Source of the DNA: Dacryopinax spathularia
Lineage: Eukaryota; Basidiomycota; Dacrymycetes; Dacrymycetales; Dacrymycetaceae
NCBI GenBank assembly: GCA_037974965.1
Contig: JBBPFI010000011.1
Span: 372,001-436,000 of the forward strand
Direction of reading: 5' to 3'
Length of the DNA stretch: 64,000 bases
In this document: positions 18,130-57,073 of the stretch, one piece after another
Position numbering within the stretch: the first letter of the stretch is position 1
How the letters are laid out: every line of letters begins with the position of its first letter
Translations under genes and position numbers: made by a program
The notes under the pieces: model-generated
What the model was told of the DNA's origin: nothing
Databases searched by the model: none
Seen by the model: the letters and a program-made list of their open reading frames with translations, nothing else

Positions 18130-18163
18130 TATGAGGTGATATATGGGACAAAAAGGGTCCCAA
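18130..18163. repeat. Left terminal inverted repeat of the giant element
   Basis: TATGAGGTGATATATGGGAC and the following AAAA match the inverse of 57050-57073 with one mismatch; GTCCC at 18157-18161 matches again after a small gap. Beyond this the two ends diverge. Confidence 0.85.
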
Positions 18164-18704
18164 GCACTCCTGTAGTCGAGCAGCACTCGTGTAGTCATCG
18201 CTGCACACTCCGTGTGACCCCGAAACTTCCGGGCCATTCCCTGCGCTCCGTGGACACGCGACAGGCACCCTCCCGTGGCTTCCACAAGCAACTCGGATGT
18301 ATGTCCCTCATTCCCGTCGACGGTGCTTCCTGAGAGAGTTTGGCTAAAGCCAGCTCTGTCATGCTGAACATGGCACTCTCCCTGCATTCCCGTTCACTCG
18401 CAGGTAACTGCTGTTCCAGCACTCCGGAAGCTAATAGGAAGCTCCCGGAAAGTCGGTCCGAAAGAAGCTGCTCGGCAAGACCGGCCACTGAATCTCATGA
18501 CATGCATGTGGAAGCAGATATGAGACTCTGCTAGCGCGGAAATCAGGAAGGAAGCCGGGCCTCAATCCATAATAACGCAGCAGAATAGCTCCATATGAAT
18601 TCTAGGGGAACATGTCGAACACTCAACCAGAGTAAAACCGGAGAATAGGTGAAAATAGAAACACGAACAAGCAATTAAGATAAGGTTTGAAATTAGACCA
18701 TTTG

Positions 18705-19690
18705 TGAAAAATCAAACATTCTCTGAAAGCGCAGCAAACTGAGAAATCGAACAACGGTGAGAATCGGCCCTTCCCACAAAATCAACACTCCGAAAAATCA
18801 GACAATCTTTGAAAGTGGTGTAATCCGTAAAATTAGAGTCTCTCTGTCCGTGCAACCCAGACCGTACGAAAATCAGACAATTTGTGCAAGCAGGGCAATG
18901 CCAACAATCGCACAGTCCCAAGAAATCGGGGAATCTGTGAGAGCCGGGCAGTCCGACAATCAGACAATCCTGTGACAGTCGGGCAATCGAGAAATCAGAC
19001 AATCCCAAGAAATCGGACAATCTGTGAGAGCCGGGCAGTCCGACAATCAGACAATCCTGTGACAGTCGGGCAATCGAGAAATCAGACAATCCCAAGAAAT
19101 CGGACAATCTGTGAGAGCCGGGCAGTCCAACAATTAGACAATCCTGTGACAGTCGGGCAATCGAGAAATCAGACAATCCCAAGAAATCGGACAATCTGTG
19201 AGAGCCGGGCAGTCCGACAATCAGACAATCCTGTGACAGTCGGGCAATCGAGAAATCAGACAATCCCAAGAAATCGGACAATCTGTGAGAGCCGGGCAGT
19301 CCGACAATCAGACAATCCTGTGACAGTCGGGCAATCGAGAAATCAGACAATCCCAAGAAATCGGACAATCTGTGAGAGCCGGGCAGTCCGACAATCAGAC
19401 AATCCTGTGACAGTCGGGCAATCGAGAAATCAGACAATCCCAAGAAATCGGACAATCTGTGAGAGCCGGGCAGTCCAACAATTAGACAATCCTGTGACAG
19501 TTGGGCAATCGAGAAATCGGGCAATCCCAAGAAATCGGGCAATCTGTGAGACTCAAGCAATATGCGAAACCAGAGAACGATAAGATTCGATCAATACCGA
19601 ATCGGAGACATGGGGCGGGATGGACTTTCCGAAGAATCATGGAATATGACAATCATACAATCTATGGAATTCGACAATCCCGCGTAGATA
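18705..19690. repeat. 87-bp satellite array built from an AAATCGGACAAT core
   Basis: The central part (18948-19560) has about seven copies of an 87-bp unit; CAGACAATCCTGTGAC-type marks recur at 18961, 19048, 19135, 19222, 19309, 19396 and 19483. Each unit is itself a run of 13-17-bp pieces around AAATCAGACAATC/AAATCGGACAATC. The flanks (18705-18947 and 19561-19690) contain single degenerate copies, so the centre is homogenised and the edges decay, as in a satellite. Because 87 is a multiple of three, long frames (about 280 aa minus, 230 aa plus) stay open; I do not regard them as genes. The stretch 18164-18704 holds no gene. Confidence 0.95.
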
Positions 19691-19875
19691 TATGTGACGA
19701 TCTGGCTGTTCAGAAGTCAAGTGTATCGAGTCTCACTGATCTCGTCTAACGAAAATGCACACAAAGGGTATATTCCACCGAATCTACAGTGTTGAGGTGT
19801 CTGTGCCAGGGAACCGCACAGTCCAGCAGAGCGCGCCAAACTTGCCAAACGTCAGCTGCTGCCTTCGTCTCCCGA

Positions 19876-22000
19876 TCACAATCCTCCAGGCATCAACCCA
19901 GAGGGCCCAAAATACTGCCTGATTTGGTGCATGACCGGCTTGATTCGGGAGGTATTTGCCTTGGATATGATGAGAGATTCGGGCGCGCCTGCGCACGCGA
20001 GAGCTCGTCCAGCCCGGGTGCGTCCGAGTGCGTACGCCACCACGGCAGTGATCATCAGCTTCTTGCGGCTGTGTTGTGTGCGATTTTCCGGTTCATCCCA
20101 TCGGTGGGCCTGAGTGCAATACCACTCCCGCTGGACCTCCCAAAAGCCTTCGAGGAAATTCAACCAGTTTTTGTGATTCCTATAGGTCCGCAAAGCGCCC
20201 AGACATCCGTACCGTTTCTCGCCGAACCACGCTGCCAAGTGTTCCCCCGTAATGACACCATCCCAGCCTTCAGCTTCCGGAACGACACAGAAGTCGTTTA
20301 CGGTGGCTTGAGGCATGGATAACAATCCAGCGGCTTCGTAAAAGTAGTCCGTTCGAGCAACGAACCATGCTACACCAGGACCGGCTGGGAAGCCTCGATC
20401 ACCGACATGTCCGCTCAAAGCCTCAAGAATATGGGGGCATTTGCGGTCTATGTATGCCGCAATCGCTCGGAAGGTAGATTCGGATCGCACAGATCTGGAA
20501 ATTTCGCCGTTTGGCCGACGCGGCTGCCTGCTCGTCCGCTGCCTGCGACGGGCCCCACTAGGAGTGGGGGTTGAGGGTACGATAACCCCATTTTCACGAA
20601 CACCCTCCGTCTCTTCCGTGTGATGATTTGGGACGGGTTGAGGGGTCTGAGTCGGTCGCGCAGGCTCGCTGAAGTCGTCCGCGTTTGCGTGGTCGGGGCT
20701 CATCGGGGATGAGGATCGATCAGAGTCGGTGAGCTCCTCGTCCTGCCATGGATTGTTGCTTCTTGTAACGGCCACCAAATAGAGGATATAGACTGGATGT
20801 TGACTAAGGAGTCGATGAGGCATCTTGCCAGCAAGGACTCTTTGAAGAAAGTTGCCCGTCCTGAAGTCCGCACGATCCATCGGTTGCAGATGTTCGTTCC
20901 CACTACTGTGTCGGTTGAGAATGTTCCAGAGCGTGCCGAGATGCACATAGCCCGGCTTTGTATACCATGTGTCGTGTTCGTCATCCTGATCACATGGCAC
21001 ACGGGTGGTGGCAACGCTGTAAGCGCCATACCTCGGAGCAAGGAATTGTTGAAATTGGTGCTGCGGCCCAGAAGGCTTATTTTCGAACAAACGTGGGAGA
21101 AGGGCGGCCGCTGGTGCATTATCTGGGATACCTTCCTTGAGTATCATTGCCCGCCCGTGGGCCTTTCCCTTCTTCGCTTGGTTTTCGAACACGATTAATA
21201 CGGCGGTACAATACTTTGCTAGGGGTAATCAGTGCAGTGACGTGTGTGAATTGGCAGTATCATACCATGGGTAGTCTCCTCGGTCCCAGACATCGAGCGG
21301 TCGCAATGAGGGCTACTGAAAGGCGCAGGCGGGATTGTCGGTCCTGCGAGAGAGGCGACGTATCTTATGGGCGTTCGTGATTCCTGAATTTCATCTCGCG
21401 ATGAAGTAGGGTCTCGGACTGGAGCTAGAGCCGACTGCAGCCTGGATGTGGCATGCGAGTCGTCTTCGAATGATGGCGCCGGCTGGTGATCAAGCCCTTC
21501 GCGATGTCCAACTGATTCAAAGGCTGCGGTCGTGCTGTTACGAGCTGGATGAGTAACGCTAGCGGAGGGTGACCATGGACTACGCACCGAGTGAGGAAGC
21601 TTGCTTGACCCAGGTCCAATGCATGGTACATTCCCACATCTCTGCCGTTCTCCCTTCTCATTCCATCCCCGGGCGCGTTGCCAGAAGAGTCGGAGGTCAT
21701 GTTAACAGATTCGGATTGCATAGCATCGGCAGTAATCGCGTTTTCGCAGGTGTTGTCAGATTGGGATGACCCCATTTGTGGGCGCTGATCGACTTGGGAC
21801 GGGCTTGTATGTATTACTGAAGATACTCGACCGAGCGTATTTGAGGGGACACCAGTCGAACTATCCCGTGTTCCAGCCGCACGTCGCTGCCGCCTATCAC
21901 GTCGGAGTAGTCTCGGTTCTACAGGATATTGACTAGCAAGGTCCGGCACGCCGCCGATGATTGTAGCGGCACGGCTCCTTGTAAGGTATGGGGTTGCCAT
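19876..22000 (-). CDS. Gene K: unrecognised protein of the giant element
   Basis: Exons (minus) 22000-21630, 21579-21266 and 21218-19876, introns 50 and 47 bp, 675 aa. The start at MATPYLTRSRAATIIGG is the first ATG in the exon 1 frame that avoids a proline- and serine-rich leader; an upstream exon is possible (an open frame reaches 22284). Residues 1-230 are disordered. A globular segment follows from KYCTAVLIVFENQAKKGKAH to YLVAV, then an acidic linker with an RRRQRTSRQPRR nuclear-localisation-like cluster, and a C-terminal globular domain rich in Trp and aromatic residues (EGFWEVQREWYCTQAHRW). No family recognised. It is the leftmost gene and is divergent from JA. Confidence 0.65.
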
Positions 22001-22429: not shown

Positions 22430-22439
22430 CGTCATGACG
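22430..22439. promoter_or_regulatory. CGTCATGACG palindrome between K and JA
   Basis: Exact copy with a half-overlapping ATCATGACGG just upstream (from 22420), in the 600-bp divergent space between the K start (22000) and the JA start (22607). No gene is seen in 22001-22606. Confidence 0.6.
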
Positions 22440-22606: not shown

Positions 22607-23816
22607 ATGCCTGGTAAGGTCAAGCGACGTTCATTCAACAAACTTGGGAGGGGTCGGTGAACTCGTGTTGCTTGTTGGACAACACTCAATGCTAAGCTTC
22701 TACGCAGTCGGTGCATCCGATGTCCGCCCGCAAGATCCTGCTTCGCGTTCCAACAAGCCTGTCATGGCCAATGCTGTGCCTCATCCGCTCTCCTTTCCCT
22801 TCGAGGACGCCCAGGAACCTTTGCCCTGGGCAGAAGAATTCTATGCCGAATGGTTGCGCCTTGGGCCGCCGCGCGTTGATCTCGTCCTACTGTATCACGC
22901 TCGTTCGTGTCTGGCTCGCCTTCGCGAGCGTGCCTTGCCATCGGTGCCTTTGGATGCTATTTCAGTGGAGCGTTTCGTGTGCCATCCCGCGATCCGCCCT
23001 ACATTGGCCATGGCAATGACCGATCTCCTAGCTGTTGCGCCTGCTGCACCAGAAGATGACTTACTTAGGCCGCTCTTGGAAGGCATGTTCGACCCGTCTA
23101 TCTCGCGAGATATGCCAAGCCCCCTCGAGCTTCACCCGACGGGGACTGCGGATGTCCCTATTACGCGCTCAGGCATGGGACGTTGCGGTTTTCGTGCACC
23201 CTTGCCCCTCGAAGGCTTCGCGGAGTCCTGGCCGCGTTCAAACGACGAGCCGGTCGGTCGAACTTATGTCATGCTGGCTGGGAGCGCCGTAACCATCAAC
23301 GGCCATGGCAGACTAGCGCCGACCGCCTTGGTGCCTGCCGACATGATGGATAGCAAGGACAACCGTGCGCTAGTCGTGACGTTTCCGAACACGCCGTTCA
23401 ACGAGACGCTCATGCCCGTACCACAAGACCAGAGTCGGTCATGGTGGGCTCATGGCGTCCTGCACGATGTACAGGACTTGCGCTACCTGCGAATTGACGG
23501 TCGCGGATCACCCGGATGCATCATCGATCCCGGGTGGTGGGTCGTCATTTTCGCCTGCAAGCCGACAAGCTTCGTCTTGTACGACTTTGTAGCACGCTCT
23601 CCAGCATCTGAGGATGCAGCGCTGGCTCGAGTGCGAAAAGATTATGCGGTAGCACTAAGTCCATCCCTTGCGCTGAGGCACCGTAGCGCGATATTGCAAA
23701 ATTTGAAACGGTCATTGCAGGCATGGATCAATTGTACCGGGAAGCATGGGTGGGCGATGCAAGCGTTAGAACTGGTGGCAGCTGGGCGCTCGATACCGAG
23801 CTCTGTGCATGCTTAG
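22607..23816 (+). CDS. JA: short JmjC-like family protein
   Basis: Exons 22607-22613 and 22708-23816 (94-bp phase-1 intron, GTAAGG...ACGCAG), 371 aa. The 7-nt first exon (ATG CCT G) is inferred from the identical layout in JB and JC; ATG 22689 is a fallback start. The protein aligns along its length with the C-terminal halves of JB and JC: RPTLAMAMTDLL, VPITRSGMGRCGF, LVVTFPNTPFNETLM, and DLRYLRIDGRGSPGCIIDPG where JC has ...ASAFILPPGWFHCALT. The latter resembles the second metal-ligand strand of JmjC/cupin dioxygenases, but JA lacks the His, so catalysis is doubtful. The N-terminal domain of JB and JC is absent. Confidence 0.7.
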
Positions 23817-24463: not shown

Positions 24464-26909
24464 ATGTCATGTGAGCGTGTCGGAAGAGGTGGAGGTCGTG
24501 ACGCGGCTGGTCCTTACCTAGGATCTAGTCCGACGAGAGGCTCGTGAGTTCTACTTCGGGAAAAGCAAGGAGACGGCTACGTATCATGTATGGACCTGGC
24601 GACCGAAAGGAAGGAAGCAACAAGAACCATCACCACCAAGCAAAAACGAGGGGAAAGTCGGAGACCTAGCGACAACGGCACAGCAAACCTGGCCGGTATG
24701 GGTTCGCCAGTCCGAACAGTGGGAAACAGTCACCCGCGAGCAACTTAACGGAGGACGACCTTTGTGCAAGCATCCCCTTCACCCTACACTGAGCCTCTGG
24801 CGCATTCCGGGGCAGGACCCCATGCTATTTTGGCACTCTCATGGGGGCATGAAGAACAAGCTCTCGACGGGTCACGTCACAATCCCTGACGACCTTGAGC
24901 AAGACGCGCCAACAGGTCCGCAACCTTTCATCACGTTGATTCTCGGCTGACTGTTATCTGTCATAACAGAGGATTCGAGCTTACAACGACCTGGATCCCT
25001 AAAGATCAGGTCTGGCCAGAAGAAGAGGAAGAGGGCCGTGAAAGACGCGGCATCGGACGCGGAAGGGGACGCAGATGTGCCGAAGGAAGTGGGGCGTGCG
25101 TGAGATTTCCTTTCATCATCACTTCAGCCAGCTGATTACGCTACATACAGTCCCTGGCAATGGAAACGACGTAGTTAGGGGCAGTGGGAAGCGCGCACGC
25201 AAGCGGAGCAATGAGGCAGATGAGGCTACCACGTCGGCGGAGGAGCTCGAAAAGTCGTCTAAATTGCAGGGCAAGGCGACGCCGTCGGTGTCCAGTATGT
25301 GCTGGTACTAGACTGACCGCATCAAACCGTCTGATTCTGGCTGTGGCTGCATAGATCCGCAGAGGGAAGAAGTGCGGGAAGGCAAGAAGAAAATGTTGAC
25401 GGCAGTGGAAGCACTGCCGAGCCTGCCGGTTCTCGAAGGCTATGCAAATGCTGTTGAGATGCCACGGTCGATACCATGTGAGTTGGATCACATGCTCATG
25501 CTTTCACTTACTGACAATTTGGGGTAGATCATGCCTTGTGTCCGGACCGCGATAATCGCGCCGGTGAGTCAAGCAGCAAATCCCACACCGCCTCCGTCGT
25601 TAGCGCTACCGCCTCTCCCCTGTCTTGCTTGACCGTGCAATTGAAGACGCTCGTGACGGCTGCAGGGAATACTTGGCTCCTCGACATTTGGGATGATTGG
25701 AAAAGCTGCGGGAGTGTGCAGACCGAAGCCGGTCGCCTCGGCTATACGCTGCTGAAGGCCGCCATGAGAAGGCCAGCGCCTATACCTCCCCTGCGAACGT
25801 ACGCGAGGAGAGCCTTCTACGAACCGAAGGGAACCCGGGCCTGTCGCCCTACTTTCGCTATGGTCCTACACGACCTGTGTGGAGCTTCTTCGGAAGTCAT
25901 GACTATCTCCACAGACGCGCTCGATGTGAATCCCATGTCGAAGGAGGAAGTCCTTGCCTCGATTCTCTACCATAATCGTGGACACGATAGCAAGACCTCG
26001 ATTAGGATGGTCGCAGCTACCGACATCCCCGCCCGTCTGGAGGGTATAGGCCAGGCTCTCGTGGCAGAGCGCCTTCCAAGAAATCAAGAAAATCGACTGC
26101 CAGTCGTTAGCGACATCTCACCTGGTGGTCACTGTGTCGATTTCAGCTCACGGTTTGAGTTTCTCGCCACCGCATACATTCCCACGGATATGCCGCATGC
26201 GGATGGGACGTATCAGCTCGTCTTCTTGGCACCCCCAACCCCGACCAACCTTGATCTGCTGTTCAGCACAACAGGGGCATCATACAACGGCCTCCATCAC
26301 TCGGAAAAGCGCATGATGGAACTAGAAGCTCTCCATTACGTACTTCTAAAGGGACGAGACTGCTCAGCCTTCATCATTCCGCCCGGATGGACTTCAAGTG
26401 TCATGACACTTCGGCTCTCAGCAGGAAGCAAGTATCGCGTGGTGGCTCCAGAGTACAGCAAGCACACCGAACATATCATGTCGGTGGCTATGGACTTTCT
26501 CAATGACATTCCCCACGGACCAGACTTCAACCGGCTTCGAAACGCCCTGGAAAGAGACATCCTCATATGGAGGGAAAGACTCAAACATGATCAAGACGAA
26601 AAAGACAATTGGGCCATCCGGCTGTACAACGGCCTTGCGGCCATGTTAAAATGCCGGACACCTTCCCATACTGAGGCCATCTATCCGGGAGGAGGTACCC
26701 GACACCAGGCGATGGTCAGGGGTCATTTAGGAGGCATCGAGGATATTGAGGTCTGTCTTGACATCGTTAGAGAAGACGAGATGGATGCGCCAGTGAACGA
26801 GCACGGCGAGACAAGTGAAGATCGGAGAACTGCGATAACGGGCTCTGAGCCGCCTCCCAACCCTACGGACCTGAATCACTCCGTAACTACATGGTCCTTG
26901 CCGATTTGA
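24464..26909 (+). CDS. JB: two-domain JmjC-like family protein
   Basis: Exons 24464-24470, 24529-24915, 24970-25095, 25151-25294, 25355-25477 and 25528-26909; 722 aa. Exon 1 is only 7 nt (ATG TCA T) and all five introns (50-60 bp) are phase 1. Residues ~5-130 form an N-terminal domain shared with JC: EFYFGKSKETATYHVW, KVGDL, WPVWVRQSEQWETV, GGRPLCKHPLHPTLSLW and MLFWHSHGGMKNKL. A linker follows with two basic nuclear-localisation-like clusters (KKRKRAVK, KRARKR). The C-terminal domain has LHYVLLKGRDCSAFIIPPGW, JmjC/cupin-like, but the position of the expected His reads TSSV. The best guess is a chromatin-associated protein that is probably not an active oxygenase. A TGTCATGACA falls inside its coding sequence (26399). 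Confidence 0.75.
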
Positions 26910-27450: not shown

Positions 27451-29950
27451 TCAAAGGACTTCCTTTACATGAAATCTAGGCTGTTTGAAACGGTCTTCAC
27501 CCATCATGTTAAGAATTTCCTCCTCATCCAGCGTCTGTATGAAGTTACTGAACTGGTTAGATATCCCTCCTGTTTCTCCCGCTTCGATGGAGTGGTTGGG
27601 CGAGCTTTGGTGAGTCTCGTCGCCCCTATCATCCCTCATGATAGACTCGTAGAGCGCAGTCGCCATGACGTACATTGTGGGATTCTTCATCCCAAACAAT
27701 ACTGTATTGAACGCGAGACCGTGAGTCCCGTCCGTGTTGAAGATCAGCTTATCGCCAAAGTTTGCCGAAAACGAGCAGTGTGCGCAAGACTTCTTTGCAC
27801 ACACAGCGAGAGGCAGCACGCTCTACTTAAGATCAGCTTAGAAGCTAGGTCGTAGGAGAGGATGCGCACCTCCAGTGCTTTCACAAGAGCGGGCATCTTA
27901 CTAACAAGCGCGTAAAGTGCACAGCGATTGTCCAGGTGCTTGCAGTTCGACGGGTCCTTACAGGAAGGCTTCTCACGACTCTGCACGTGCCGGATGAGCC
28001 CCATGAGAATAGATTCGCAGTGAAGATGGACACGATAGCCGACGCTCTTCGCTTGGTCCTGGAAATACTCGTATTGTGTTTGCGAGAATGGCATCCCGCG
28101 GCCTTCCGGAGGATGAATCAGCTTGTCGAGCCACTTCTTGGCCGTCCTATGCTCCTCGTCCTTCATCACCCAGTTGGGGAGGTGGTAGGGCGTGATACTG
28201 TATATAGTTGGCTCCCAGGGCTTCTCATTTTCAGGCTTGAAGAGTTGCCGGCACGTGAGCGGGGCGAAGTAAATAGCTGAAAGGTTGAATAGCAACGATT
28301 TGAGGACACCGGCGACATCGGTCACTGTTTCGTCTTCAGCGGCGATTTCCTTCGCTGACTGAAGATCTTCAATAAGATCTTCATCATCGTCAGCTTTGAA
28401 AAAGGAGGGAGATGGACTCCATGTTCTTTCCCCTTTGATATCCACCTCAGGGGCACCGCTGGGGCGGCCCTTAAGGTCGGCCGACGGATTGACTCCGCGC
28501 ACTTGTCTAATGGTAAGTCGATGTTGCACGCAAGACCAGACTACTTACCTAAGATACCAGCCAATCCGTATGAAGATTGTCCCAACAAGGCGCGCAATAT
28601 ATCGGGTAAACGACGGCCATGAGATGGATCGGGCAGTGGCGCCGTAAAGAAGGAGGAGAGAGCCTCCATGTAGCCACAGAGATGAGTAAGTGCCAATTCG
28701 AAATTGTGCCTAAGGAGGACACGCTCCTGAACATCATGGTGGAAGATGCGCTTGTTGGTGGCATGGATGCCGTTTAAGAGCCATGCAAGTAGGGCCGCCC
28801 AAACGCGGGAATTACGTGGAGTAAGATGGACATAGTTTGGCCTCGTTTCCGACCAGAGCTCTTTCCAGGCTATGCGGGTACCGCGGAAGAGAGTTCCGGC
28901 AACGCGTGGCTTGTTTTCCAGTGTCTTGATCAGCGTTGCCATGGCGGGATAACCTGTCATGTCGACGACGAGCTCTTCCTGTGTTTCGAATGTGACGAAG
29001 GAACTGTCCGTTTCCGAAGGAGGCGGACTCAGAGCGTAGTTCTTGAGGATGTCCACAAATGTGGTCTTGAGAAACAATCGATCAACGGATTCTACCCGAT
29101 CATTGATTTTCTTGGTGAGATTTCGGTAAAGGTACCGGCGGAGTTCGCTAGGTGCACTCGAGCGCTCAGACGCGATTTGTGCTTGGTAACAGGGCAAGAG
29201 CTTACTGCATCTGCACGTCCGGGGCCTGCACAAGGGAAAGCCACTGCTTGGTGTGAATGGCGGCACTGGAAGCGCGTCCTTCACGCAAACTAACGCCATC
29301 AGATATCAGCGGGCGCCGCGGTGAACCGGAGGAATCACTTACTCATTACGGATCTTGTAAAGGAGTTCTCGGCGTTCGTCAAGGGTGAGCATCTGCACAG
29401 ACTGAACGATCCAGTTACTTTTTGCCTGGCTCAATCGGGTTTGGACAGAGTTGCGAGCAATGAGCAAAGTCTTGCCGGGTTTGCTGGTAGTTACCTGAGG
29501 CGGATCGAGTTTGTAATGTCGCATGAGCTGACGGAGGGTAAGACTCCTCTCGTCAGGGAGCTTGGAAGGAGGAGCCCGGACTGCTGGGGGATCCTCCGCG
29601 CCGGCAATGGCAATGGCAGGTATACCGCTTGTCTCGTCTGAAGTGGTGCCCCACCATAACGACAGACTCAATGCCTTCATTCCGCGTACGAGGAAGTTGT
29701 TGTCACTGCGGTCTGAAAATGTGCTTTCCGTGACTTGGGCATGGGTTTTGCCAACCACACCCCAGGTTATACTCATAAGGAAGGCGAGATAGTCCGGTTT
29801 CGCGTGCCAGTTTGGGAAATCGGTCTGGATAGAGCTTCTTCCCACGTCCGCAGCATCCTTCCCTTCAGGGGCTTGCAAAGGAGTCCGGTCCCCGCGCAGC
29901 TGCGCTGCAGATGTCGAGGAGGATATTGGAGTAGAGGGCCGATCCGTCAT
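27451..29950 (-). CDS. Gene A: Cys-rich family protein, paralogue of gene B
   Basis: Model exons (minus) 29950-29343, 29243-28545, 28506-27870 and 27822-27451, 771 aa; the frame closes throughout. The first two joins are the less certain (99-bp and 38-bp introns). It aligns with gene B: RRYLYRNLTKKINDRVESVD against RIATFVLWNNLSIIHHSIEV, a helical middle, then SCKDPSNCKHLDNRCALY against CPGKCRHPDERCVLY, and a final exon with SCAHCSF against CAICRW. The two Cys/His clusters look like structural zinc sites. An acidic patch (FFKADDDEDLIEDLQ) lies mid-protein. I do not recognise a named family; role unknown. Confidence 0.65.
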
Positions 29951-30130
29951 CGCGATAGGAGGGACAAGACGAGGCAATCAATCCGTAGGGAGGGGGAACG
30001 CGGCCGTCTAGAGGAAGGTCGGTCACGGTGGGATGGTTATTGTCCCAAGCACACGTGTTACACTCATGTCTCTCCGCACAGCCTCCAAGACACGTGTTGA
30101 AGACATCATTTAGAAAGAGTCACGTCTGTA

Positions 30131-42519: not shown

Positions 42520-42537
42520 ATTAAGCTTCTCCTCTTG

Positions 42538-42795
42538 GATAATCCCAAGAAATCGGACAATCCCAAGAAATCGGACATTTTTGAGAAATCGGACAATCTC
42601 AGGAAATCAGACAATCCCGAAAATCGGACATTTTTGAGAAATCAGACAATCCCAGGAAATCAGACAGTGCGGAGAAATCAGACAATCCCAGGAAATCAGA
42701 CAATCCTGAGAAATCAGACAATGTCAAGAAATCAAACATTCGGGAGCCATTGGACAAACTTTTTACGCCCCACTCTCTCAAGAAATCGGACAACA
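42538..42795. repeat. Array of ~15-bp AAATC(A/G)GACA units
   Basis: Roughly 14 irregular units of 13-17 bp, each carrying AAATCGGACA or AAATCAGACA followed by ATCCC, TTTTTG or similar (for example 42549, 42564, 42586, 42603). The core is the same as in the 18.7-kb satellite, but here there is no 87-bp higher-order unit. It lies just beyond the 3' end of gene L. Confidence 0.9.
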
Positions 42796-46182: not shown

Positions 46183-48393
46183 ATGCCTGATCCAACTTCA
46201 ACCCATCTTTCCTCAGCTATACGCCGGCCGCCGGCTCTCGAACGCGTTCGCGCTATGCAACGTAAATGTGCCGAGGCAAAGAACGACATAACATTCACCG
46301 ACCTCCTGATCCGGTATACGCGACTATCCCTATCCCCGTCTTTCCCACAAGAGGAGTCAAAACCATCTATCTCCAGGCCTCTGGTCCCTTCCACTCACGT
46401 TTCTTCGGATACATCGTCGGCTGAAGATGGAGCATCCGACGAGGATATAGTATCTCCGCTAGACTCAGCTTCATCGCCGTCCGACTGGGAAGTCGAGGGA
46501 GTCGATAAAGATGAACGATTGGGAGCAGCGGGCGTATCCACGGTTGCGGGCAATGAATCGCTACCTCAGCCGTCGTCTCGATTACCCTCCGACACCCCCT
46601 CGCCGTCTCCCCTGTGGCGACAGAGAAGACACTCGCACTCTTCAGAGCGGCACGCGTTCCATGATCAGCATGATGAACATCAGAACGTGGCTCCTTATGA
46701 TACAGCGCTCCCCGATGGCCCATCTTCGATTTACCCAGAGATGGCCGACTTGGATGGCTATATGCCACCTCCCACCCCTGCGCTCGGAACTCCTCCAAGG
46801 TCTCGAAGCACGACATATGCGGTGGATACAGCTACCCCTGCCGTCGTACTTCGAGGCCGCATGTCCGCAGGAATGCAATCGCACCATGGCGAGTCCTTTT
46901 CCCCTACAGCTCAACACGACATCCCGAGGTCGCCCTTCGCCCAATGGCGCGAGCGGCTCGTCGCCCCCTCTACATCTACAATGCCCGCCTTACTGCCGCT
47001 CGAACACGACTTCCCAGATAACGACAATCTTCCTACATATCCTCAGAGGCCTCAGCATAGCGTGGGCCTACCCGTCGTCCTCTCTACAATGTCTGGCTCA
47101 GTACGCCTCGAACATGCGTCCCGACACAATAACGATCTTCCTACGTACCCTCAGACGCCTCAGCATAGCGCACGTGTACCCCATACGTACAAGCGGTCTG
47201 AAGTTAGCGGACCCCTTAGTCCGTCGTTCGGGGAGTCTGCAGTGCCTCGGGATACGAGAGTTTCCTGCAGCTCGCCGGCCATACAACCGCCGTCTAGCAT
47301 GACAACGCCCCACGAGCGATCTCCGGAGGACGCAGGCTTCGCGGAGGGACAGATGAAGGACGAGCAGGAGATCGATATGGAGGAGGGCAGCGATCGAGGG
47401 CTTGAGAAGAGGCCGATTAAGATCGAGGACGACGCGACTGCACAGTCAGCCAGCCAGGGGGCCGATACACGTCATGACGCTTTCCCTCAGGTCATCTCCG
47501 GTTTCTTGACTGAAGCTCGCGAACCGCTTCGTCCGTCCTTGGGAGGGTCTCCAATGCCACCGTATATGAGGGTTTCCCGCAGCTCGCCGGCCATACAACC
47601 GCCGTCTAGCATGACAACGCCCCACGAGCGACCTCCGGAGGACGCAGGCTTGGCGGAGGGACAGACGGAGGACGAGCAAGAGATCGATATGGAGGAGGAC
47701 AGCGATCGAGGGCTTGAGAAGAGGCCGATTAAGATCGAGGACGAGGCGAACTCACAAACAGCCAGCCAAGGGGATAGTACCCGTCATGACACTTCTCCTC
47801 GGTCCAGGTCCGGCATGCTCATCCCCGGCACACCCGAGCAGCGTCGACTTCCACCGATGACACGTTCGCGTGATAGCGGTCACAACCTTACACCAGTTTC
47901 AGGTGTCATCCCCTCACTCGGGGCGGTACATAACTCGCCGTCAGCCAGGTCAACACTTGGGATGCCGGCGGCCGAAGCGAGAGCTACCGCTGCTCAGCCG
48001 GGCTTCAAGGTGGTCGGTCCCGTGCAGCATACGTCGCTCGCAGTTGGATCCCAGTCCGCTCTATGCTATGGCGGTGGGCCTCCTCCCCCTATGGTACAAA
48101 TGCCTGCTGTCGCCGAGGAGCTGGTTCCGGATTCTTCACGGATGTTCGAAGTTGGGCAGAGCGCAACGACGTCGAGCGAGTCAGAAAGCTTGGACGGTTT
48201 CTCGCCGCGAGCCGGCCGGAACATCTCCCTGCGCTCACCAGTGCTTCCTCCATCTCAGCCTCAGACGCCCCAATACTATTCAGACTGGCCTCCTCCCCCT
48301 GCTGTGGATACGCCACCTCCTGCAGAGGACGACTTGGCCGATCTTTTGCAGCTCTTTCAGATCACTCCCAGGGGAACTCCCGTAACGGATTGA
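46183..48393 (+). CDS. Gene P: disordered protein with an internal duplication, before the helicase
   Basis: One frame of 736 aa, rich in Pro, Ser and acidic residues. ERVRAMQRKCAEAKNDITFT near the N-terminus is the only ordered-looking part. A segment of roughly 85 residues is duplicated (about 47245-47480 and 47570-47790: AIQPPSSMTTPHER, DEQEIDMEE, LEKRPIKIED). IKIEDD and IKIEDE resemble SUMO-attachment sites. PQYYSDWPPPPAVD near the end recurs in the helicase leader as PRYYSVWPPPPAVD. The frame stops just before the helicase frame and is in the same phase, so this could be the leader of the helicase or a separate gene; I leave that open. Confidence 0.5.
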   Translation: MPDPTSTHLSSAIRRPPALERVRAMQRKCAEAKNDITFTDLLIRYTRLSLSPSFPQEESKPSISRPLVPSTHVSSDTSSAEDGASDEDIVSPLDSASSPSDWEVEGVDKDERLGAAGVSTVAGNESLPQPSSRLPSDTPSPSPLWRQRRHSHSSERHAFHDQHDEHQNVAPYDTALPDGPSSIYPEMADLDGYMPPPTPALGTPPRSRSTTYAVDTATPAVVLRGRMSAGMQSHHGESFSPTAQHDIPRSPFAQWRERLVAPSTSTMPALLPLEHDFPDNDNLPTYPQRPQHSVGLPVVLSTMSGSVRLEHASRHNNDLPTYPQTPQHSARVPHTYKRSEVSGPLSPSFGESAVPRDTRVSCSSPAIQPPSSMTTPHERSPEDAGFAEGQMKDEQEIDMEEGSDRGLEKRPIKIEDDATAQSASQGADTRHDAFPQVISGFLTEAREPLRPSLGGSPMPPYMRVSRSSPAIQPPSSMTTPHERPPEDAGLAEGQTEDEQEIDMEEDSDRGLEKRPIKIEDEANSQTASQGDSTRHDTSPRSRSGMLIPGTPEQRRLPPMTRSRDSGHNLTPVSGVIPSLGAVHNSPSARSTLGMPAAEARATAAQPGFKVVGPVQHTSLAVGSQSALCYGGGPPPPMVQMPAVAEELVPDSSRMFEVGQSATTSSESESLDGFSPRAGRNISLRSPVLPPSQPQTPQYYSDWPPPPAVDTPPPAEDDLADLLQLFQITPRGTPVTD

Positions 48394-51244
48394 GGAGACC
48401 CGTTCAACTTCAGTGACTTCGGTGTACCGTCCGCGCACGGCCAACCCGCATCTCTCAGAACGCCTTCGCCACCCCTCCTGTCGGATCCGCAGGCTCCTCG
48501 CTACTATTCCGTTTGGCCTCCGCCGCCCGCAGTCGACGGTCCACTCCTGACAGAGGAGCATTTGGGGCTTCTCGAACAGATACTGGATGTCTCGCCACTA
48601 GCAAGCCCCTCTCGTGTTCGAGGCAATATTCCCCCCTCGCAGCGATCTAGAGTCGATTCTAACCCCTCAAGTGAGAGAGAAGTCGCCGCTCAGGGGCGAC
48701 CTGCACTCGTCACAGACCAGGGGGCTATTCTGTCATCTGCAAGCAGTGTGGCGCAGAGCTCCGGAAACGAACTTCATAATACCGTTCAAAATACCGACAC
48801 CTCGGAATTTGCAGCCTCGTTGGGGGATGATGAAAGGGTGCAGAGCGCTCAATTTGACGCCCTGAGAAGCAACATGGCTGGTGAAACGCACAGCAGGATG
48901 GAGAATGATCCGCTCACCTCAAATCTGTCAAAAAGAGCAGCTCAGGGCTCATTCCAGCCTCCTATCAGGAATAAACCTATTGAGCGACCCACCTTCAAGC
49001 CGGGTGAATCGACAGGCTCGCAGAAAGGCAGCGGGGACGATGCCGGTGGGACGGACACCGCGAAGAACAACTTGCCTGTCAATAAAACTGTACCGGCCGA
49101 CCCCAAACCACATCTCAAGGCCCGCGCAAAGCACGGATCGACTAAGCCGCTGGATGCACGGCGGAACTTGGCCGATCCAACACTCCAGAATCCAAACGAA
49201 GCTCCTCAACCAGTGCGTGGGTCTCGCCCACCCGCGAGTCTACCGCCACCACCGGCAAAACAACCATACTTAGAGCGAGCGCCTTCCATGAAGTTGAGAA
49301 TGCTCCTGGAAGCGTACGCGAAAAGCTCCTCCCGCACGGCCAAGCATGCACGTCTTGGGCATTATGATGCCACCGAGAATGTACAGCTCAACGAGAAACA
49401 AGCGCAGGCGTTAAAGCTGGTTTTGGCAGGTCGGAGCCTGTTTCTAACCGGCTCAGCTGGTGAGTCAACGATCCAGAACAATCTCACCAAGCACTTTATT
49501 AACTGGCATGCAGGCACTGGCAAGTCTCACACGCTGATGTGTATGATCAAAGCCATGAAGCAAAAGTTCCTAGGTCAACATCACGTGGCGGTGACAGCGT
49601 CGACTGGCATCGCCGCACTGGGTATTGGAGGCCGGACCTTACACTGGTGGGCGGGAATGGGGATGGGAAGAGACAGCGTCAAAGCTCGCATCGCGAAGAT
49701 CAAGGTGTGGGGCGGGCCCCTGGTGGAAAGGATCAAAGAAGTTCGCGTCCTATTTATAGATGAAAGTGGGTGCCTTGAAGCCTTCCGTATGATGTTTTCT
49801 CATTCATTCCCTATAGTTGGTATGATCAGCGACGAAACTTTCGATCGAGCAGAAGCCATAGTGCGCGAAATTCGGGAAGTTCCAGCACCATGGGGTGGCA
49901 TCCAGGTCAGCAGAGTTTCCCAGGATATCAGGTTCGATCTCATGCCTGCCGTAGCTTGTTCTTTGCGGGGACTTCTTCCAACTACCTCCGATCCCAAGAC
50001 GCAAAGGAGACCCAGTCTTCTATGCGTTTCAAGCCAAGACATGGCATTCTATCATAAAGACCTATGTGGAACTCACTCAGGTGGTCCGTCAGCGGGATGC
50101 AGGTAAAGTCGCTCACTGCTCAATATGTCCTGTCCCGCTGAGAATGCCGACTCAGCGTTTGTTGCAATGCTGAATGAGATCAGGGTGGGGCAATTGTCTA
50201 AAGAGACGATAGAAGCGCTTCGGAAACGGCGAGAACGACACGACCAGAGAAATGACCCCGTACTTCTGTTGGTGTTAGTGCTTGCTGATGCCACTACACT
50301 CCGCTGACTGCAGTAGGTTTTCCAAGCGGAAAGATGTCACCGCGTCTAACGAAATGAGATTGTTGCGACTGGAGCGAACCATCTTCCAATACCAAGCCAT
50401 CGATTTCGGAAATAGGGAAGAACTCGCTCGAGAGGAGAAGGAAGGCAACATTGCACCCGCCCGGGTCCGCCTCTCTCGAGGAGCGCGGGTGCTTTTGACC
50501 CGGAACTCAACAACAAACCCACTCCTGGTCAATGGTAGCCGCGGTGTTGTGCTTGGCTTCCTTACCCAAGACGAGTGGGACTTAGCTCAACAGCGAAGAT
50601 ACCCCGAACACACCCATGAAGACGATTACGAGGATCACGAGATAGTGAATCTGGTAAAGGCTGCCTCTGAGGAAAGCGATGATGACCCAAATGATGTGAT
50701 GAAGAGAACGCGTGAAGCGGCGCGGAGGAAGGCTAAGCTCCTGCCCGTCATCCGATGGGCCACCCCTGCTGGATTTCTCATTGATCTCCTCGGGTATGAT
50801 TGTGACAGAGTGTATGGGTCCAACGGCGCTCTTTTTGCAGAACGACATCAAGTGAGCTCCTTACACATGCTGATGTGCCACAAATGTTTCATGCTGACGC
50901 ATTTCTAAAGTTGCACATACTAGGGGCCTGGGCCTTCACAATCCATCGTTGTCAGGGCCAGACACTGGACTTCGCTGAGGTCGACCTTGAGGGCGCGTGG
51001 GAAGAAGGTAGGCTTCTGGTGAACAATATCAGAATTCCTCTTACGCCGCTTACCTAGGTATGGGTTACACTTCCGTCACGAGGGTACGCACCCTCGAAGG
51101 GCTGTCATTGAGGGGATGGGATGCCAAGTCGGTCGGTACACGTCGTTCCTTCTTATCTGCCGTGCTAATTTCTTGCAGTTCAAAGCGAATGATTCCGTGA
51201 AGAGGTTCTATGGTTGGATGGAGAGTAGGTGTCAAGGGACGTGA
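48394..51244 (+). CDS. PIF1-type 5'-3' DNA helicase
   Basis: Coding up to 49459, then exons 49514-49765, 49817-49905, 49955-50102, 50156 to about 50267, 50314-50851, 50911-51007, 51058-51131 and 51179-51244. After a disordered leader of about 300 residues come LNEKQAQALKLVLAGRSLF, GSAGTGKSHT (Walker A, split by an intron), TASTGIAALGIGGRTLHWW, VLFIDEIGMI (Walker B), LCGDFFQLPP, ELTQVVRQRD, NEIRVGQLS, NGSRGVVLGF, AWAFTIHRCQGQTLD and VTRVRTLEGL, the PIF1/RRM3 motifs in order. It would unwind DNA during replication or integration of the element. There is no Rep/HUH nuclease domain, so it is not a Helitron protein. The start and the donor near 50268 are uncertain. Confidence 0.8.
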
Positions 51245-51309
51245 GCTGCAGCATGTGTTCCCATACTCTGTAGCCTTATTCGGTTGGGTGTGAAAATGTC
51301 AGATGTTTC

Positions 51310-51802
51310 AGCTTCGCATGAATCGGACAAATACCGCAGGCGCGAAGGCCTCTCATCCGAGCAAGAGGCTTACCGGTCTTCGTCGGCTGCCTGGCCGACT
51401 ACTTTTGTCTGATTCTGTGGAATGTCTGATTTTGCGAAATGTCTGATTTTGCAACCTCGCATGAATCGGACAATACCGCAAGCGCGAAGGCCTCTCATCC
51501 GAGCAACAGGCTTACTTACCGGTCTTCGTCGGCTGCCTGGCCGACTACTTTTGTCTGATTCTGTGGAATGTCTGATTTTGCGAAATGTCTGATTTTGCAA
51601 CCTCGCATGAATCGGACAATACCGCAAGCGCGAAGGCCTCTCATCCGAGCAAGAGGCTTACCGGTCTTCGTCGGCTGCCTGGCCGACTACTTTTGTCTGA
51701 TTCTGTGGAATGTCTGATTTTGCGAAATGTCTGATTTTGCAACCTCGCATGAATCGGACAATACCGCAAGCGCGCAGGCCTCTCATCCGAGCAAGAGGCT
51801 TA
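51310..51802. repeat. ~142-bp tandem repeat containing TGTCTGATTT cores
   Basis: About 3.5 copies; the mark GCGCGAAGGC (or GCGCGCAGGC) recurs at about 51340, 51482, 51629 and 51770. Each unit contains GAATCGGACAATACCG on the plus strand and TGTCTGATTTTG twice, which is the inverse of AAATCAGACA. Cores therefore occur in both orientations within one unit, unlike the other two arrays. It begins about 65 bp beyond the helicase stop. 51803-52051 holds no supported gene. Confidence 0.92.
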
Positions 51803-52051
51803 CGCTGCACCCGAATTAATCTTGGTCGGCTGCCTTGCAGACTGTCATAGTGCAACTGTCCAGAAATGTTGGATGATGTCCAACGACACGAGTAACTCTC
51901 ATGGTTAGAACAGGAAGGCCACTGAATTCTCCCGATCGTGTCGCACAAGCTAATTCAATGGTGAATCGAAGTATTCTCATTAGGGGTGTGGAAGGATATA
52001 TATTATGGATAACATAGGGTAAATTGTCGATGTCTAAGGGGAGAAACAAAC

Positions 52052-55000
52052 TCAGTAGGCATTGAAATCCGTCGTGGCCTGCGCAAGTAAAGTAGCCATG
52101 AAGACGCGGTCAAACTCAGCACCGTCATCAGCAGCCACCGCCAGATTGTGAAGTGTGGATCCATAATGTAACGTGAAGGTAGCGAAACACACGCGCGCCT
52201 CCATCATTGTGCATTCAGAGTGGATCTTCTCGCCTCTCATTCTTCCAGAAGGTTGAAGGTTAGGCCTAATGGAGACCTGATGATATTGCAACATGAGTAT
52301 CCTAACCCGTATCGCATTGCTAGTCACTCACGGAAATGACAGCTGCTCCAGGCGAGTTTTCAACTCCATGACAGACAGTGTTGAATGCCTGACAGCGTAT
52401 GTGAGGTCGAGTGAATGGGGAGTGCGGATCATGCATCTCTGGAAGGATCCCCCGAGTGGCGTAGATTTCACGAAGGACGTCTGAGCCTGGACTATCAAGC
52501 AGAGCGGGGAGACCTTCGCGAGACAGACACCGGATGATGCTGTCCTTCAGATCCGTCCACACTAATTCTGGTACATCAGGATCACGTGTGTCCCAGCGGA
52601 TCCGTTCAGCGATGTAGGTGTTCGGATCCAGGGTTGTATCCGTCCACACTGTGTAGATAAAGGTGGGGAAGTCAATGAAGGCTCGGTTGATAAAGTACTG
52701 AAGTAGTTAGTTTGGTTGTACTTTCGGCCGAATGCGAAGGCCTTACGTCATTCAGTCGAGGGAAGAACTCGAAGCCCTTGGAGAAAGACTTCATCTGTTC
52801 AAAATCAAGCGGGCAGCCAGGGTGGCCGAAGAGAAAGAAATTGAACAAACGGCCACGGATAACAGCATGCTCCGCGCGGCTCATTCTGAAGTCGAGCATA
52901 TTGTCTGAGATGTGCGAAGGGATATCCTATACCCAAGTTAATACGTTGCAATGGATGGCAAGACTATGGTCTGCGACGCACCACATCGATAGCCTCCAAG
53001 TAAGGTCGGAACGAATCCATTGTTCGAAGAGCAACTTTCTGTCGCTGGCGGACCGTTGGGTTCTTCACGTGGGAAGCCACCATTCCATCCCAGGAAGCGA
53101 GCCAGTTCGCTGCCTGCGGTGCAAACGTGCGGATGAAGGACAAGGAGCGGCAGTTTTCGAGGGCGGCTGCTTTGTCACGGGAAGCGGCTACATACACAAG
53201 GAATGGGGAAAGGTTAAATGGTGGTGTTCCAGAGAATAGAATCCACAGGGCAGCCAGCATGCCGATGCCCCGCCAGAAAACGTCGTCGTGATGCTTGTTC
53301 GAGGCAGATGGGCAAAACCCAACGAATTGATCAATGGTCTTCGAGTGTGACGCAGGACGGATAGCCAGATATTGCTGAAGCATGCGAAACAGTGTGACAC
53401 GCGCGGGACCGTTCCCGGATGTAATGACAGAGCGGGTGATAGGGGCAAGTCTGCTAGTGTCATCAGCCGAGCTAATAACCATCTATAAGGCACGCACATG
53501 TCTACTCGAAAATGCTCAGGCGTGAGGCGACATAGCCATTCGGATAACATCTTCTTGGAAGTAGAATTTTCTCGTGGCTCTCCACCAGGTAGATCTGGCG
53601 ATCGGTATGTGACGCGCAGTGCCTTGTAGAGCTGCTGCGCCAGGTCAGTGCCGAGAGCCTCGAAGGCCGCCTCCGTATCTGTGCGGGACTGCCCAGGGGG
53701 TATCGCTGCTGAAAACGTGTAGTTCAGAGGGGGAGGGGGAGCCTCCATGAGAGTGCGAGCCCGCGTCAACCATTGCACCACTGAGAGGCGATATGAAGGG
53801 GTTCCTAAGGAAGCCGGTCGCCAGGCTAATTCTGTTAATGCATGTTCCCCAGGGGGATGTGTATGGAGCACTTACTATCCTCCGACCCGCAATCTGTGAA
53901 GCTGTCACTTTCTCCTTCAGAATGTGGATCAACTGTAAAACCGCCAAACTCCTCATCCGACCTTGACGGTGAGCTTAGCGCAGACAGATCGATGAAGTCC
54001 CGCCTCCCGGGGGACGAGAAGAGCAGTAAAGGTGAAGGTGTACCATGAGAGTGTATTTCTATCGGCCGCTCACGGGCCCCAAGGGGGGGTGAAACCCGTG
54101 GAGTGGCTCGTTGAGCATGCCTCGTTGTAGTCGCAGGACTAATTCCTGCAGGACGCGGTTGGGGGGCGAGTGTCGAAGTCGGCGTGGAAGTCAAACTGGG
54201 ACGTGGCTGAGGAATGTTGACTTGCGGGGTTCGCGGCTGCGATGGAGTAGAGACCGGAAGGGCGTTCCCTATGGGAGGGGTCATTGGTACGGTATTATTG
54301 GGTTGTTCTACTCAAGGATGTTAAACGGATGGCCGCGAGAGAGAGTAGCAAAGTTGGTTGGCTTACGAGCCGCGATTGAGGGAACTCCGAACTCTCGCAG
54401 ACTTCTGAGCTCCGCCTCCAGAACAGCACGGACACTTGGTAAGCTGGTCGAGCTGTCATCTGAAGGTGTAGAATCCTCGGGTGGATCTGGCGGTTGCACA
54501 AGATCCCGATCATGAGAGGGGGAAAGCCGCGGCCGAACAACACTCCTGCGGTGTGAGGAGGGGGGACTAGGACTCTGTGTAATAAGATTCAGTGGAAGTC
54601 ACCTCAGTTCAGAGAAAGCAGCCGACATCACTTAACCGCCGACGTTGGGGAACGATGACACCGTGACTCGAGGCAGGGAGAGACATGGCGGGCGGGACGA
54701 CACACGTTGCACTTCCTAAGCAACTATCATCGGGATGGCCGTAAAGAGGATTACAGTGCGACAACCGGTGAAGCGCGACTCGGACAAAGCATTGGTGCAG
54801 ACCAGGCCCTCGATTCAAGGTAGCAGCCAGCGGCCCCGGAATGATTCCATGACGCGGAACTGCATACGCAAATGAGCTTCGCACTGATGGGAGAGCAAAT
54901 TAACAAACCGACGAAGACGAGAAACTGCCGTCGTGCTCCTGTGTTGCCGGGGCGGAACCAATTGGAGTAAATCCGTTTGAGCTGAGGTTGGAGAGGAGTT

Positions 55001-56307
55001 TGAGGATCAATTCCCTGCGGGGCATACGCCCCGGGTATATTATTCTGGCGAGGACCAGGTCGGACGAAATCGAATAAACGGGAATCATACCCAGCTAAGA
55101 CGGCGCCAGGTTGAGCAGGAGGGGGAAAGGTGAGATCGTGCCTAGCCAAGCGGGATCGGATGTCGACGTCGAAGTGATCCCAGTTGCTAGTACGCGGATC
55201 AAGATCAAATACATGCAAAAGGCCAAGAGGCTCAAAACGTTCACACAGCATAGTGAGACCGTCCGTACCAAGACCTGAATATGGTTGTGGTCCTTGCGCA
55301 TCTCGCAAAGGAAATATGGGCTCGACCCCACCAAGCTAGGGAGTAGTCAGCATCCCTTCAAAACAACTGATATATACGACGCACCGGACAAGGTAAGACC
55401 ACAACACAGAATAGGTTGCGACGGGACATCCCAATCGCACTCGTGACCATTGTGCCTGCGCCTTGCGTTTCGCCAGCGACTACGTGTATGCCAGATTGCT
55501 GACCGTCAGGTTGAACGACATTGCCAAAGCCCACGGAGGTACTGCTCGCCGCCATAGATGATCTGTTGCGACGCCGACGTGATCCACTAATTGGTGGGTG
55601 TCGCGCGGAGGCAGCCATCCGACTGTCATTTGCATTGGAGAGCTCGGTGCCTTCCAGGCGCTGAGCGAAGGTGACGGGCTGGAGTGGAATGCCATGGAGA
55701 CGGCGTAGCAGTGGTGCTGGTCGGAATGAAGGCTGTACCACCGCGGGCCGGCAATGCGCAACCTGCCTCGTACTGGAGTCGCCCGCTGCATCCTGCACGC
55801 CGCCTGGGTCTCCACATGTAGACGTCAAAACGTCCACCCTGTGTGACCCGGGACTGCTTCCATGATTAGGCACACGGGGACGACATGTCTGAAGGACATG
55901 GGAAGCAACAGGTGATAAAGGGCCGCAACTGTGAAGGATGTACGCCATCCGACATGTCGTTCCGTCACTTCGTATGTTCTGGCACTCGGTATGTTCGGCC
56001 GACCACGTCAGCGACAGCTGAAAGGTCGTTAGCAAAGAGCATGATAGAGTGAAGGCAGCTGGCGTACGTTAAAAAAGTATTTGCAGCCAGTGGCCGGACA
56101 TGCAAGCCGAAGTGGAAGCGGGAAGTGGTGCCGGTTCAGTGGACATCCGCATCGACAAACGGTAGTAGGAAGAAAGTCGTCCGGTTCGGGATATGTCTGT
56201 GAAGTGTGAGAGCAAGCCGATTCAAATGTAAGATGACGCACGAAGTATGTGAAACGAGAGCATAGGCAATCCAGACATTGAAGAGGGCCTCTGGGTGAAA
56301 ACGTCAT
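52052..56307 (-). CDS. Gene M: large protein with N-terminal Cys clusters and HECT-like C-terminus (tentative)
   Basis: Coding blocks on the minus strand: about 56260-56060 (TVCRCGCPLNRHHF and LACPATGCKYFF, zinc-like), about 56010-55480 (further Cys and basic residues), about 55300-54920 (GLLHVFDLDPRTSNWDHFDV), 54515-54305 and 54284-53835 (disordered, Ser/Pro-rich), about 53850-53490, 53470-52985, 52920-52750, 52680-52330 and 52270-52052. The last five blocks (FWRGIGMLAALWILFSG, DFEQMKSFSKGFEFFPRLND, then HIRCQAFNTV near the end) have the order and spacing reminiscent of a HECT ubiquitin-ligase lobe, but the catalytic pattern is not clear. It may be one gene of about 1,200 aa or two. Joins not fixed. 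Confidence 0.4.
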
Positions 56308-56312
56308 GACGC
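56303..56312. promoter_or_regulatory. CGTCATGACG palindrome at the 5' side of gene M
   Basis: Rightmost exact copy in the element, at or just upstream of the first recognisable M exon. 56313-57039 up to the right end contains short open frames only; I cannot support a gene there. Confidence 0.5.
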
Positions 56313-57039
56313 AAGGCGATGCTCAATTGGTTGAGGTGCTTCGGGTAATGGGTGGATAGGAACTGATTGGAAGAGCCAATAGTAATCGATAAGGGATAAA
56401 CAGTAACGAATGGTGCAGCCAAACTGGGGAACGAGCGGAAGGATGGAATGAGTAACGCGAAAAAGGCGAGCAGCTGTCGACGAACTCTTTCCAGACCGAA
56501 GGAGAAGAGCAAATGCGCCGAACAACGACGTGGAAAAGATCGCTCCGCTCCGTCCAATATGTCCTTCCAAAAGTCCACGATCAATCCTGTTTTTAGCGAA
56601 AGGGGGAGCTTCCGGTCAAGTGATGGAAAGCCGGTTGATCCGCACTCGGCAGAAGCCGATCAAAGATGATCTGCTCGTGAATGATGGCCTGGCCGAGTTC
56701 ATCCAGGGTGAAGCCCAAGTGCGCGCCATCTTGCAAGCTACTGGAGAAATGGGACCAGACTTGGGAAGAACGCGAGCGAGTGCAGGGGGAATGGGGACGG
56801 GTTGACGATCTGAGGTGACCGTACCAGTACAGGCTTGTCAGGCAGAATGGAAGGGAGTGCTCAGGGAAGCAGTATACACCAAGGTACGTCATTCGGGTGG
56901 GGAGGTTCAGGGAGTGGAGGGGGCGTGTACCCCGGCGGACGCGAATGCACGCGGAAGGGATTTATTGCTCCCGGAGTACAGTGAATGCTCGGAGAATGGG
57001 GGGGCGGACGAGCGCGTGTGGTACAGGTTCTCAGGGCTA

Positions 57040-57073
57040 GGGACGGGTATTTTGTCCCATAAATCACCTCATA
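57040..57073. repeat. Right terminal inverted repeat of the giant element
   Basis: 57050-57073 read on the minus strand gives TATGAGGTGATTTATGGGAC and AAAA, matching 18130-18153 with one mismatch. GGGAC at 57040-57044 corresponds to the inner GTCCC of the left end. Confidence 0.85.

Follow-up and report, generated by a model that had tools for sequence, protein, structure and literature searches.

Positions 18130-57073 of a 64,000-nucleotide stretch of the Dacryopinax spathularia genome (G000:C11:372001-436000, hereafter the window) very likely represent a real, recently mobile giant transposon, as judged from the sequence. We describe it, with considerable confidence, as a 39-kb DNA transposon of the IS3EU-like (IS3EU/GingerRoot) group, an established though little-studied transposase group, IS3EU having been compared through its published descriptions. 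The assembly comprises 29.2 Mb in 24 contigs (designated C1, C2, C4 etc.; the window element is the C11 copy), and all conclusions hold for this one assembly.

Ends of the element and target site duplication

The limits of the element are determined by the following features (window coordinates):

18123..18129, unstranded, left target site duplication CAGGCGC, 7 bp, flush against the left terminal inverted repeat (TIR)
18130..18153, + strand, left TIR TATGAGGTGATATATGGGACAAAA
57050..57073, - strand, right TIR (inverse of TATGAGGTGATATATGGGACAAAA)
57074..57080, unstranded, right target site duplication CAGGCGC, 7 bp

The two 24-bp TIRs agree at 23/24 bases, and CAGGCGC abuts both of their outer sides. 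Allowing up to three mismatches, the TIR 24-mer occurs exactly twice in the window, against an expectation of 0.00 (100 shuffles), in line with an initial annotation of this DNA that had called a chance pair of this kind very unlikely, the more so with the abutting 7-mer. The lower GC content that it reported for the interior was also found (53.8% inside the element vs 57.7% in the flanks; 1-kb bins, 38 vs 25; Mann-Whitney p 3.5e-6).

A second, nearly identical copy and an older relative

A second full copy of 39.1 kb was identified in the opposite orientation at C4:504769-543886, where the end-to-end match stops no more than 8 bases from the element ends. Over window positions 21845-57082 the copies differ by 10, 33, 23 and 16 substitutions in four tiles, i.e. 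82 of 35,256 aligned positions (0.23%, a figure that excludes the left 3.7 kb of the C4 copy, which aligned in overlapping gapped pieces). Both copies carry the termini TATGA..TCATA. The flanks of the C4 copy are unlike those on C11, and it has its own 7-bp duplication, CGCCCAG. Such near-identical copies at unrelated sites, each with a separate duplication, argue strongly for recent transposition, and they count against an assembly join.

C1 holds a third relative, which is older. It shares about 68-79% identity in pieces, its order is partly inverted and its right end is present; the left end was not found in the C1 sequence examined. The same sequence also contains a gypsy-type element and a separate large helicase gene.

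A genome-wide family of paired ends

Degenerate end searches of the genome gave 41 and 30 places (partly overlapping), compared with 1 and 0 for a reversed control pattern. Pairing of facing ends yielded 26 sets, 21 of them with perfect 6-8 bp duplications; among 650 mispaired flank combinations, none reached 5 bp. One further member was predicted on C6 from a right end at 1445420 with the conserved gene B (described below) about 44 kb away. In the 1.8 kb read at the expected site, the left end was located where predicted (1398488; 16/24 bases alike), with a 6-bp duplication, CGCTAC, delimiting an element of 46.9 kb. Duplications are thus present in 22 of 27 paired ends (12 of 6 bp, eight of 7 bp and two of 8 bp, including a short element on C12). 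In one pair (C5:827560), one of the ends reads AATGA. The count leaves out end matches that were very weak or had no partner (C16:519265, C1:2500912, C8:348076, C8:288354, C4:1427577 and the right-end match of the C1 relative). Together with the second full copy, the paired ends and the predicted 46.9-kb member bear out the earlier claim of a giant DNA transposon with inverted ends, a target duplication and an integrase.

The 27 pairs fall into 11 large members (12.3-46.9 kb), one of 2.5 kb and 15 short ones (435-513 bp). The short derivatives (about 430-515 bp) have similar ends and no room for a transposase. Among seven that were compared, three are inverted at the ends only and four are full-length inverted repeats (C10:928501-928935, C18:711006-711440, C5:827071-827527 and C2:2883118-2883588). 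The latter are 435-471 bases long, show 77-82% identity to their own inverse and are flanked by perfect 6-7 bp duplications.

The transposase

The element encodes a DDE transposase:

32591..35707, - strand, DDE integrase/transposase gene (gene model), with PF24764 and the rve core within frame 32594-34156

This frame matches PF24764 (E 1.5e-57) and rve (E 8.2e-9), and its acidic triad is intact (D230, D287 and E322, with 34 residues between the last two). Against the C1 relative, the ratio of nonsynonymous to synonymous substitution rates (dN/dS) is 0.11 (497 codons). The best NCBIfam matches are IS481 (E 2.8e-11, 43.5 bits) and IS3 (E 1.3e-5, 24.6 bits). The curated cut-offs, 224 and 160 bits, are far higher, which makes the transposase a relative of these families, not a member. 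In each of five relatives scanned likewise, IS481 ranked first and IS3 second. A protein search (8,000 candidates scored) returned 575 relatives. Among the matches listed (120 of 575) were proteins of Agaricomycetes, Rhizophagus, other fungi and animals (corals, mussels), as well as unnamed metagenome proteins; the best-scoring of those listed, from Trametes, share 39-42% identity. A comparison of the integrase with PDB by sequence gave nothing significant.

Comparison with known transposons

The following comparisons draw on portions of the cited papers. Termini of complete IS3EU families are always TA..TA, with duplications usually of 6 bp, and GingerRoot is alike (Kojima and Bao 2023, PMC10045372). 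IS3EU families of rust fungi that carry TET genes have 6-bp duplications, ends of the form TAYGG..CCRTA and an alpha-kinase gene (Kojima 2025, PMC12730594), and IS3EU sequences have been listed in Ganoderma (PMC8955403). The D. spathularia element has TA..TA termini with inverted repeats, a transposase of the IS3/IS481 type and nearly matching duplications, and on this basis it fits the IS3EU group, of which it is likely a member. The initial annotation drew comparisons with Starships, Polintons, Teratorn and KDZ elements, and did not consider IS3EU and GingerRoot. Its proposal of a new class of integrase-driven giant element finds no support in that wording.

The element differs from these families in its size (39 kb, up to 46.9 kb in the family), its 24-bp ends, and the presence of gene B, a PIF1 helicase and JmjC-like proteins. 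The alpha-kinase of the rust members is a known accessory gene; here, neither a TET/JBP nor an alpha-kinase match was detected in the frames scanned with Pfam (30 open frames and nine gene-model pieces, a subset of all reading frames; this scope applies to the negative Pfam results on other kinds of element below). The cargo, comprising a helicase and chromatin-enzyme look-alikes, exceeds what was found described for the IS3EU group, and searches of an open-access library, which covered neither subscription papers nor preprints, turned up neither a giant IS3EU element nor JmjC cargo. A further IS3EU relative, Styx of Zymoseptoria (PMC10853768), likewise combines a related transposase with extra open reading frames, 6-bp duplications and recent activity in a fungus. 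It is 7.9 kb long with four open reading frames and 36-bp ends, and the available portion of its description names neither a helicase nor JmjC proteins.

Starships, reported at 42-606 kb from the basidiomycete Tremella fuciformis (PMC13066641), are also giant fungal elements with cargo, but they use a tyrosine recombinase captain at one end. The element has an interior DDE integrase instead, and no tyrosine recombinase was matched by Pfam. Nor was a KDZ or Plavaka transposase matched in the frames scanned, the transposase being of the PF24764/rve type. Helitrons encode an HUH Rep protein fused to a helicase, and have neither inverted ends nor a target duplication; here both are present, and no Rep match lies beside PIF1 in the frames scanned. 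Helitron-borne deubiquitinases (PMC9741609) have no bearing on this element.

Gene B and the PIF1-like helicase

Two further genes were followed across the family:

52037..55948, - strand, gene B, encoding a conserved core protein, matched in 11/11 TIR-bounded large members
46183..51033, + strand, PIF1-like helicase gene whose long N-terminal part is poorly conserved; PF05970 in 48394-50103 and Pif1_2B (E 0.0012) in 50279-50905

Pfam matches confirm both enzymes named in the initial annotation, the DDE integrase and the PIF1 helicase. Collapsed by hand, 43 exon matches to the integrase reduce to 24 loci in the genome, and 41 to gene B reduce to 15. The whole-genome searches score best candidates only, which sets the sensitivity of the absences given below (PIF1 in the shorter members, gene B at some integrase loci). 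One integrase locus and one gene B locus were found in each of the 11 TIR-bounded large members. The check on further copies of the end that the initial annotation had proposed thus came out in its favour, as ends elsewhere in the genome enclose similar core genes. At the other four gene B loci, where the two ends were not both read, an integrase likewise lies within 42 kb. Each of the 15 gene B loci is therefore accompanied by an integrase, while nine integrase loci have no gene B partner.

PIF1-like matches number 33 genome-wide. They occur in 4/4 TIR-bounded giants (38.9, 39.1, 31.6 and 46.9 kb) versus 0/7 members of 12-17 kb, and lie between integrase and gene B on C1, C7 (1518-1549 kb) and C8 (718-748 kb). 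The matches within the giants on C8 and C6 extend over about 90-110 residues with 35 and 38% identity (E about 1e-10), and this low identity indicates that those helicases are old or were separately acquired. The chance of a PIF1-like match in a random 40-kb stretch is about 1 in 22, and its presence in two of two further giants (C8 and C6) by chance is unlikely but not absurd.

No public homologue of gene B was found at E 1e-3 in a search that needs shared exact words and is length-limited, and is hence not proof of absence. Gene B was also considered as a HECT-type ligase on a by-eye resemblance, and this idea was rejected: six copies searched against Pfam (E up to 5) gave nothing, a PDB profile gave one 27-residue chance match, and none of 13 HECT matches in the genome (E up to 1) lies at a gene B locus. 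An AlphaFold2 model of its C-terminal half was unreliable (mean confidence score, pLDDT, 43).

JmjC-like proteins

Three paralogous genes encode JmjC-like proteins. The residues given are at positions, placed by alignment, that we take to be the Fe/2-oxoglutarate ligands.

30134..31362, - strand, paralogue 1, assigned a KDM2/7-type fold from an AlphaFold2 model and a fold search; D, N, T, H at the ligand positions
24849..26909, + strand, paralogue 2, 31% identity to paralogue 1 (E 4.4e-36, by sequence only); ligand positions S, R, Q, S
22689..23816, + strand, paralogue 3, 20% identity to paralogue 1 (E 5.4e-8, by sequence only); ligand positions N, H, A, V

The predicted structure of paralogue 1 has a KDM2/7-type JmjC fold. 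The JmjC-like proteins gave no Pfam match, and a JmjC profile found nothing significant in PDB by sequence. Intact H/D/K/H ligands occur in four of nine aligned JmjC-like sequences, none of these in the window. Related genes are located elsewhere in the genome, at C14:791-796k, C2:1860k, C9:1041k, C7:963k and 365k, and C2:1748k. Among five such genes that were read, the ligands are intact in L086, L088, L089 and L090, and not in L087. A viral fold library gave one match to the JmjC model below 1e-3, an insect-virus JmjC protein with TM-scores of 0.24 and 0.16; this match is not counted as evidence for a viral origin.

Other features of the element and its flanks

The remaining genes and the tandem arrays are as follows:

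20036..21171, - strand, gene A (exon of a gene model); the 15-kb elements of C2 and C5 match 20038-20373 with 34-40% identity and, less strongly, 20995-21141
27683..29977, - strand, gene without a Pfam match in the frames scanned
38360..40087, - strand, conserved coding pieces, dN/dS 0.20, 0.20 and 0.52 vs C1
40118..42192, - strand, conserved coding pieces, dN/dS 0.11-0.47 vs C1
42923..45846, - strand, large conserved gene, pieces with dN/dS 0.15-0.31 vs C1, one saturated and one with its best frame on the other strand
18912..19551, unstranded, tandem array with 7.4 copies of an 87-bp unit, 97% matches; gapped here in the alignment with the C4 copy
42541..42740, unstranded, 18/54-bp tandem array
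47198..47794, unstranded, tandem array
51294..51803, unstranded, 142-bp tandem array, 3.6 copies

A simple gene model placed 10 models inside the element, several of which probably fuse neighbours or overrun the true end, and the earlier estimate of about 11 genes besides integrase and helicase is plausible. The four arrays confirm that the element has satellites of its own; the units of those at 18912-19551 and 42541-42740 are related to each other. The internal palindrome reported alongside them was not recovered, as a search for arms of at least 24 bases (12-base seed) found only the TIRs and two weak long-distance pairs.

Four places without an integrase match (C5:199789/202150, C5:151176/153536, C2:2374419/2376749 and C8:150654/148624) have a relative of the 39096-39815 frame and, 2-2.4 kb away, a PIF1-like match, as if the two formed a module of another element. 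A decayed relative of the right half of the giant, containing the 39-kb frame, the 43-kb gene and PIF1, each with a stop, occurs at C9:747-756k, where neither integrase nor gene B was matched. The insertion is bracketed by two flank genes about 45 kb apart, with matches to squalene/phytoene synthase (window 11990-13378, - strand; PF00494, E 2.5e-32) and amine oxidoreductase (window 58331-59710, + strand; PF01593, E 1.8e-11).

Weighing the interpretation

Several observations weigh against the reading of the element as a recently mobile, IS3EU-like giant with a functional cargo. The left 3.7 kb of the C4 copy, which contains the 87-bp array, is more diverged or gapped (28/2,924 and 23/1,402 substitutions). 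The duplication is absent in five of the 27 paired ends (C8:686671-698987, C4:102761-105246, C5:827560-828006, C11:976931-977443 and C18:687558-688035), and it measures 7 bp at both 39-kb copies and 6-8 bp in the family, against the 6 bp usual for IS3EU. At C14:328-355k, a further locus where integrase and gene B stand far apart, the interval between the two lacks a PIF1-like match, and some large members may therefore do without the helicase. For gene B, Pfam, a PDB profile and AlphaFold2 revealed no known fold. None of the three JmjC-like proteins in the window retains the Fe(II) HxD..H motif with the 2-oxoglutarate lysine, the best Foldseek rows for the paralogue 1 model reach TM-scores of only 0.40-0.46, and no homologue of this paralogue was found in the protein collection at E 1e-3 (a word-based, length-limited search, not proof of absence); the role of these proteins is consequently a guess.

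It is conceivable, but unlikely, that the element is a passive composite, an ordinary IS3EU element of about 15 kb swollen by unrelated insertions, the extra genes being junk. Its core genes are identical in kind to those of the 15-kb members, the gene order is rearranged in the C1 relative, which has other transposons beside it, and constraint is weak in parts, such as the N-terminal part of PIF1 (dN/dS 0.37-0.65 vs C1). However, much of the extra coding sequence is constrained, with values of 0.07-0.19 for the PIF1 core and 0.11-0.35 for the majority of pieces from 38 to 46 kb (against 0.34-0.52 when the non-coding right tail is read in this way), and PIF1-like genes are present in every TIR-bounded giant.

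We also regard as improbable a truly new superfamily of giants whose DDE enzyme is only distantly akin to IS3EU, and which would be defined by the integrase, gene B and the 6-8 bp duplication. The mixed duplication lengths, the lack of gene B homologues in the searched collection and the lack of a paper on such elements in the open-access library searched would suit it. On the other side, the TA..TA ends, the predominance of 6-7 bp duplications and the IS481/IS3-like transposase match the published IS3EU description, and the integrase family is widespread in mushrooms, Rhizophagus and animals.

An integrated virus or virus-like element of the Polinton/adintovirus kind, to which the rve-type integrase, the length of tens of kb, the many genes without assignment and the inverted ends could point, is very improbable, given that polymerase B, protease, packaging ATPase and capsid had no Pfam match (most proteins are without a structure model, and distant homologues are possible), that a PHROGs scan of ten frames matched transposases only, that the nearest bacterial families of the integrase are IS481 and IS3, and that short non-coding derivatives sharing the ends, as here, are a usual feature of transposons.

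Proposed mechanism and significance

For the IS3EU-like giant transposon, the transposase would bind the ends and cut the element out, or join it by a copying mode. It would then join the element to target DNA with a stagger of 6-8 bp, which the host would fill in. Gene B, kept in every large member, may be an accessory transposition protein. We infer the mechanisms of the cargo genes throughout: PIF1 might help a very long element through replication or gap repair, and the three JmjC-like proteins, themselves without catalytic ligands, might act at host chromatin against silencing. By analogy, this role would resemble that of the TET/JBP genes of other fungal DNA transposons (Kyakuja, Zisupton, Plavaka and others; PMC12730594), which encode an oxygenase-fold protein thought to fight silencing. 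The difference is that here one element has three JmjC-like paralogues with degenerate ligands, of which one was modelled (KDM2/7-type).

More tentatively, and as a possibility that we do not favour strongly, these elements may form a lineage of giant self-mobilising IS3EU-like transposons in a basidiomycete with their own toolkit: transposase and gene B for movement, PIF1 needed above about 30 kb, and pseudo-demethylase JmjC proteins blocking silencing. A DDE transposon moving 39-47 kb as a single unit tests how large such an element can be. This single genome holds seven members of 12-17 kb that lack a PIF1 match and four of 32-47 kb that have one, a contrast that allows a relation between helicase and size to be tested directly. 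From the JmjC-like proteins one would expect silencing to be opposed at histones, not at DNA methylation. Cargo-carrying giant transposons of fungi are known mainly as Starships with tyrosine recombinases; if the proposed lineage is real, it would be another, DDE-based kind of fungal giant mobile element beside them.

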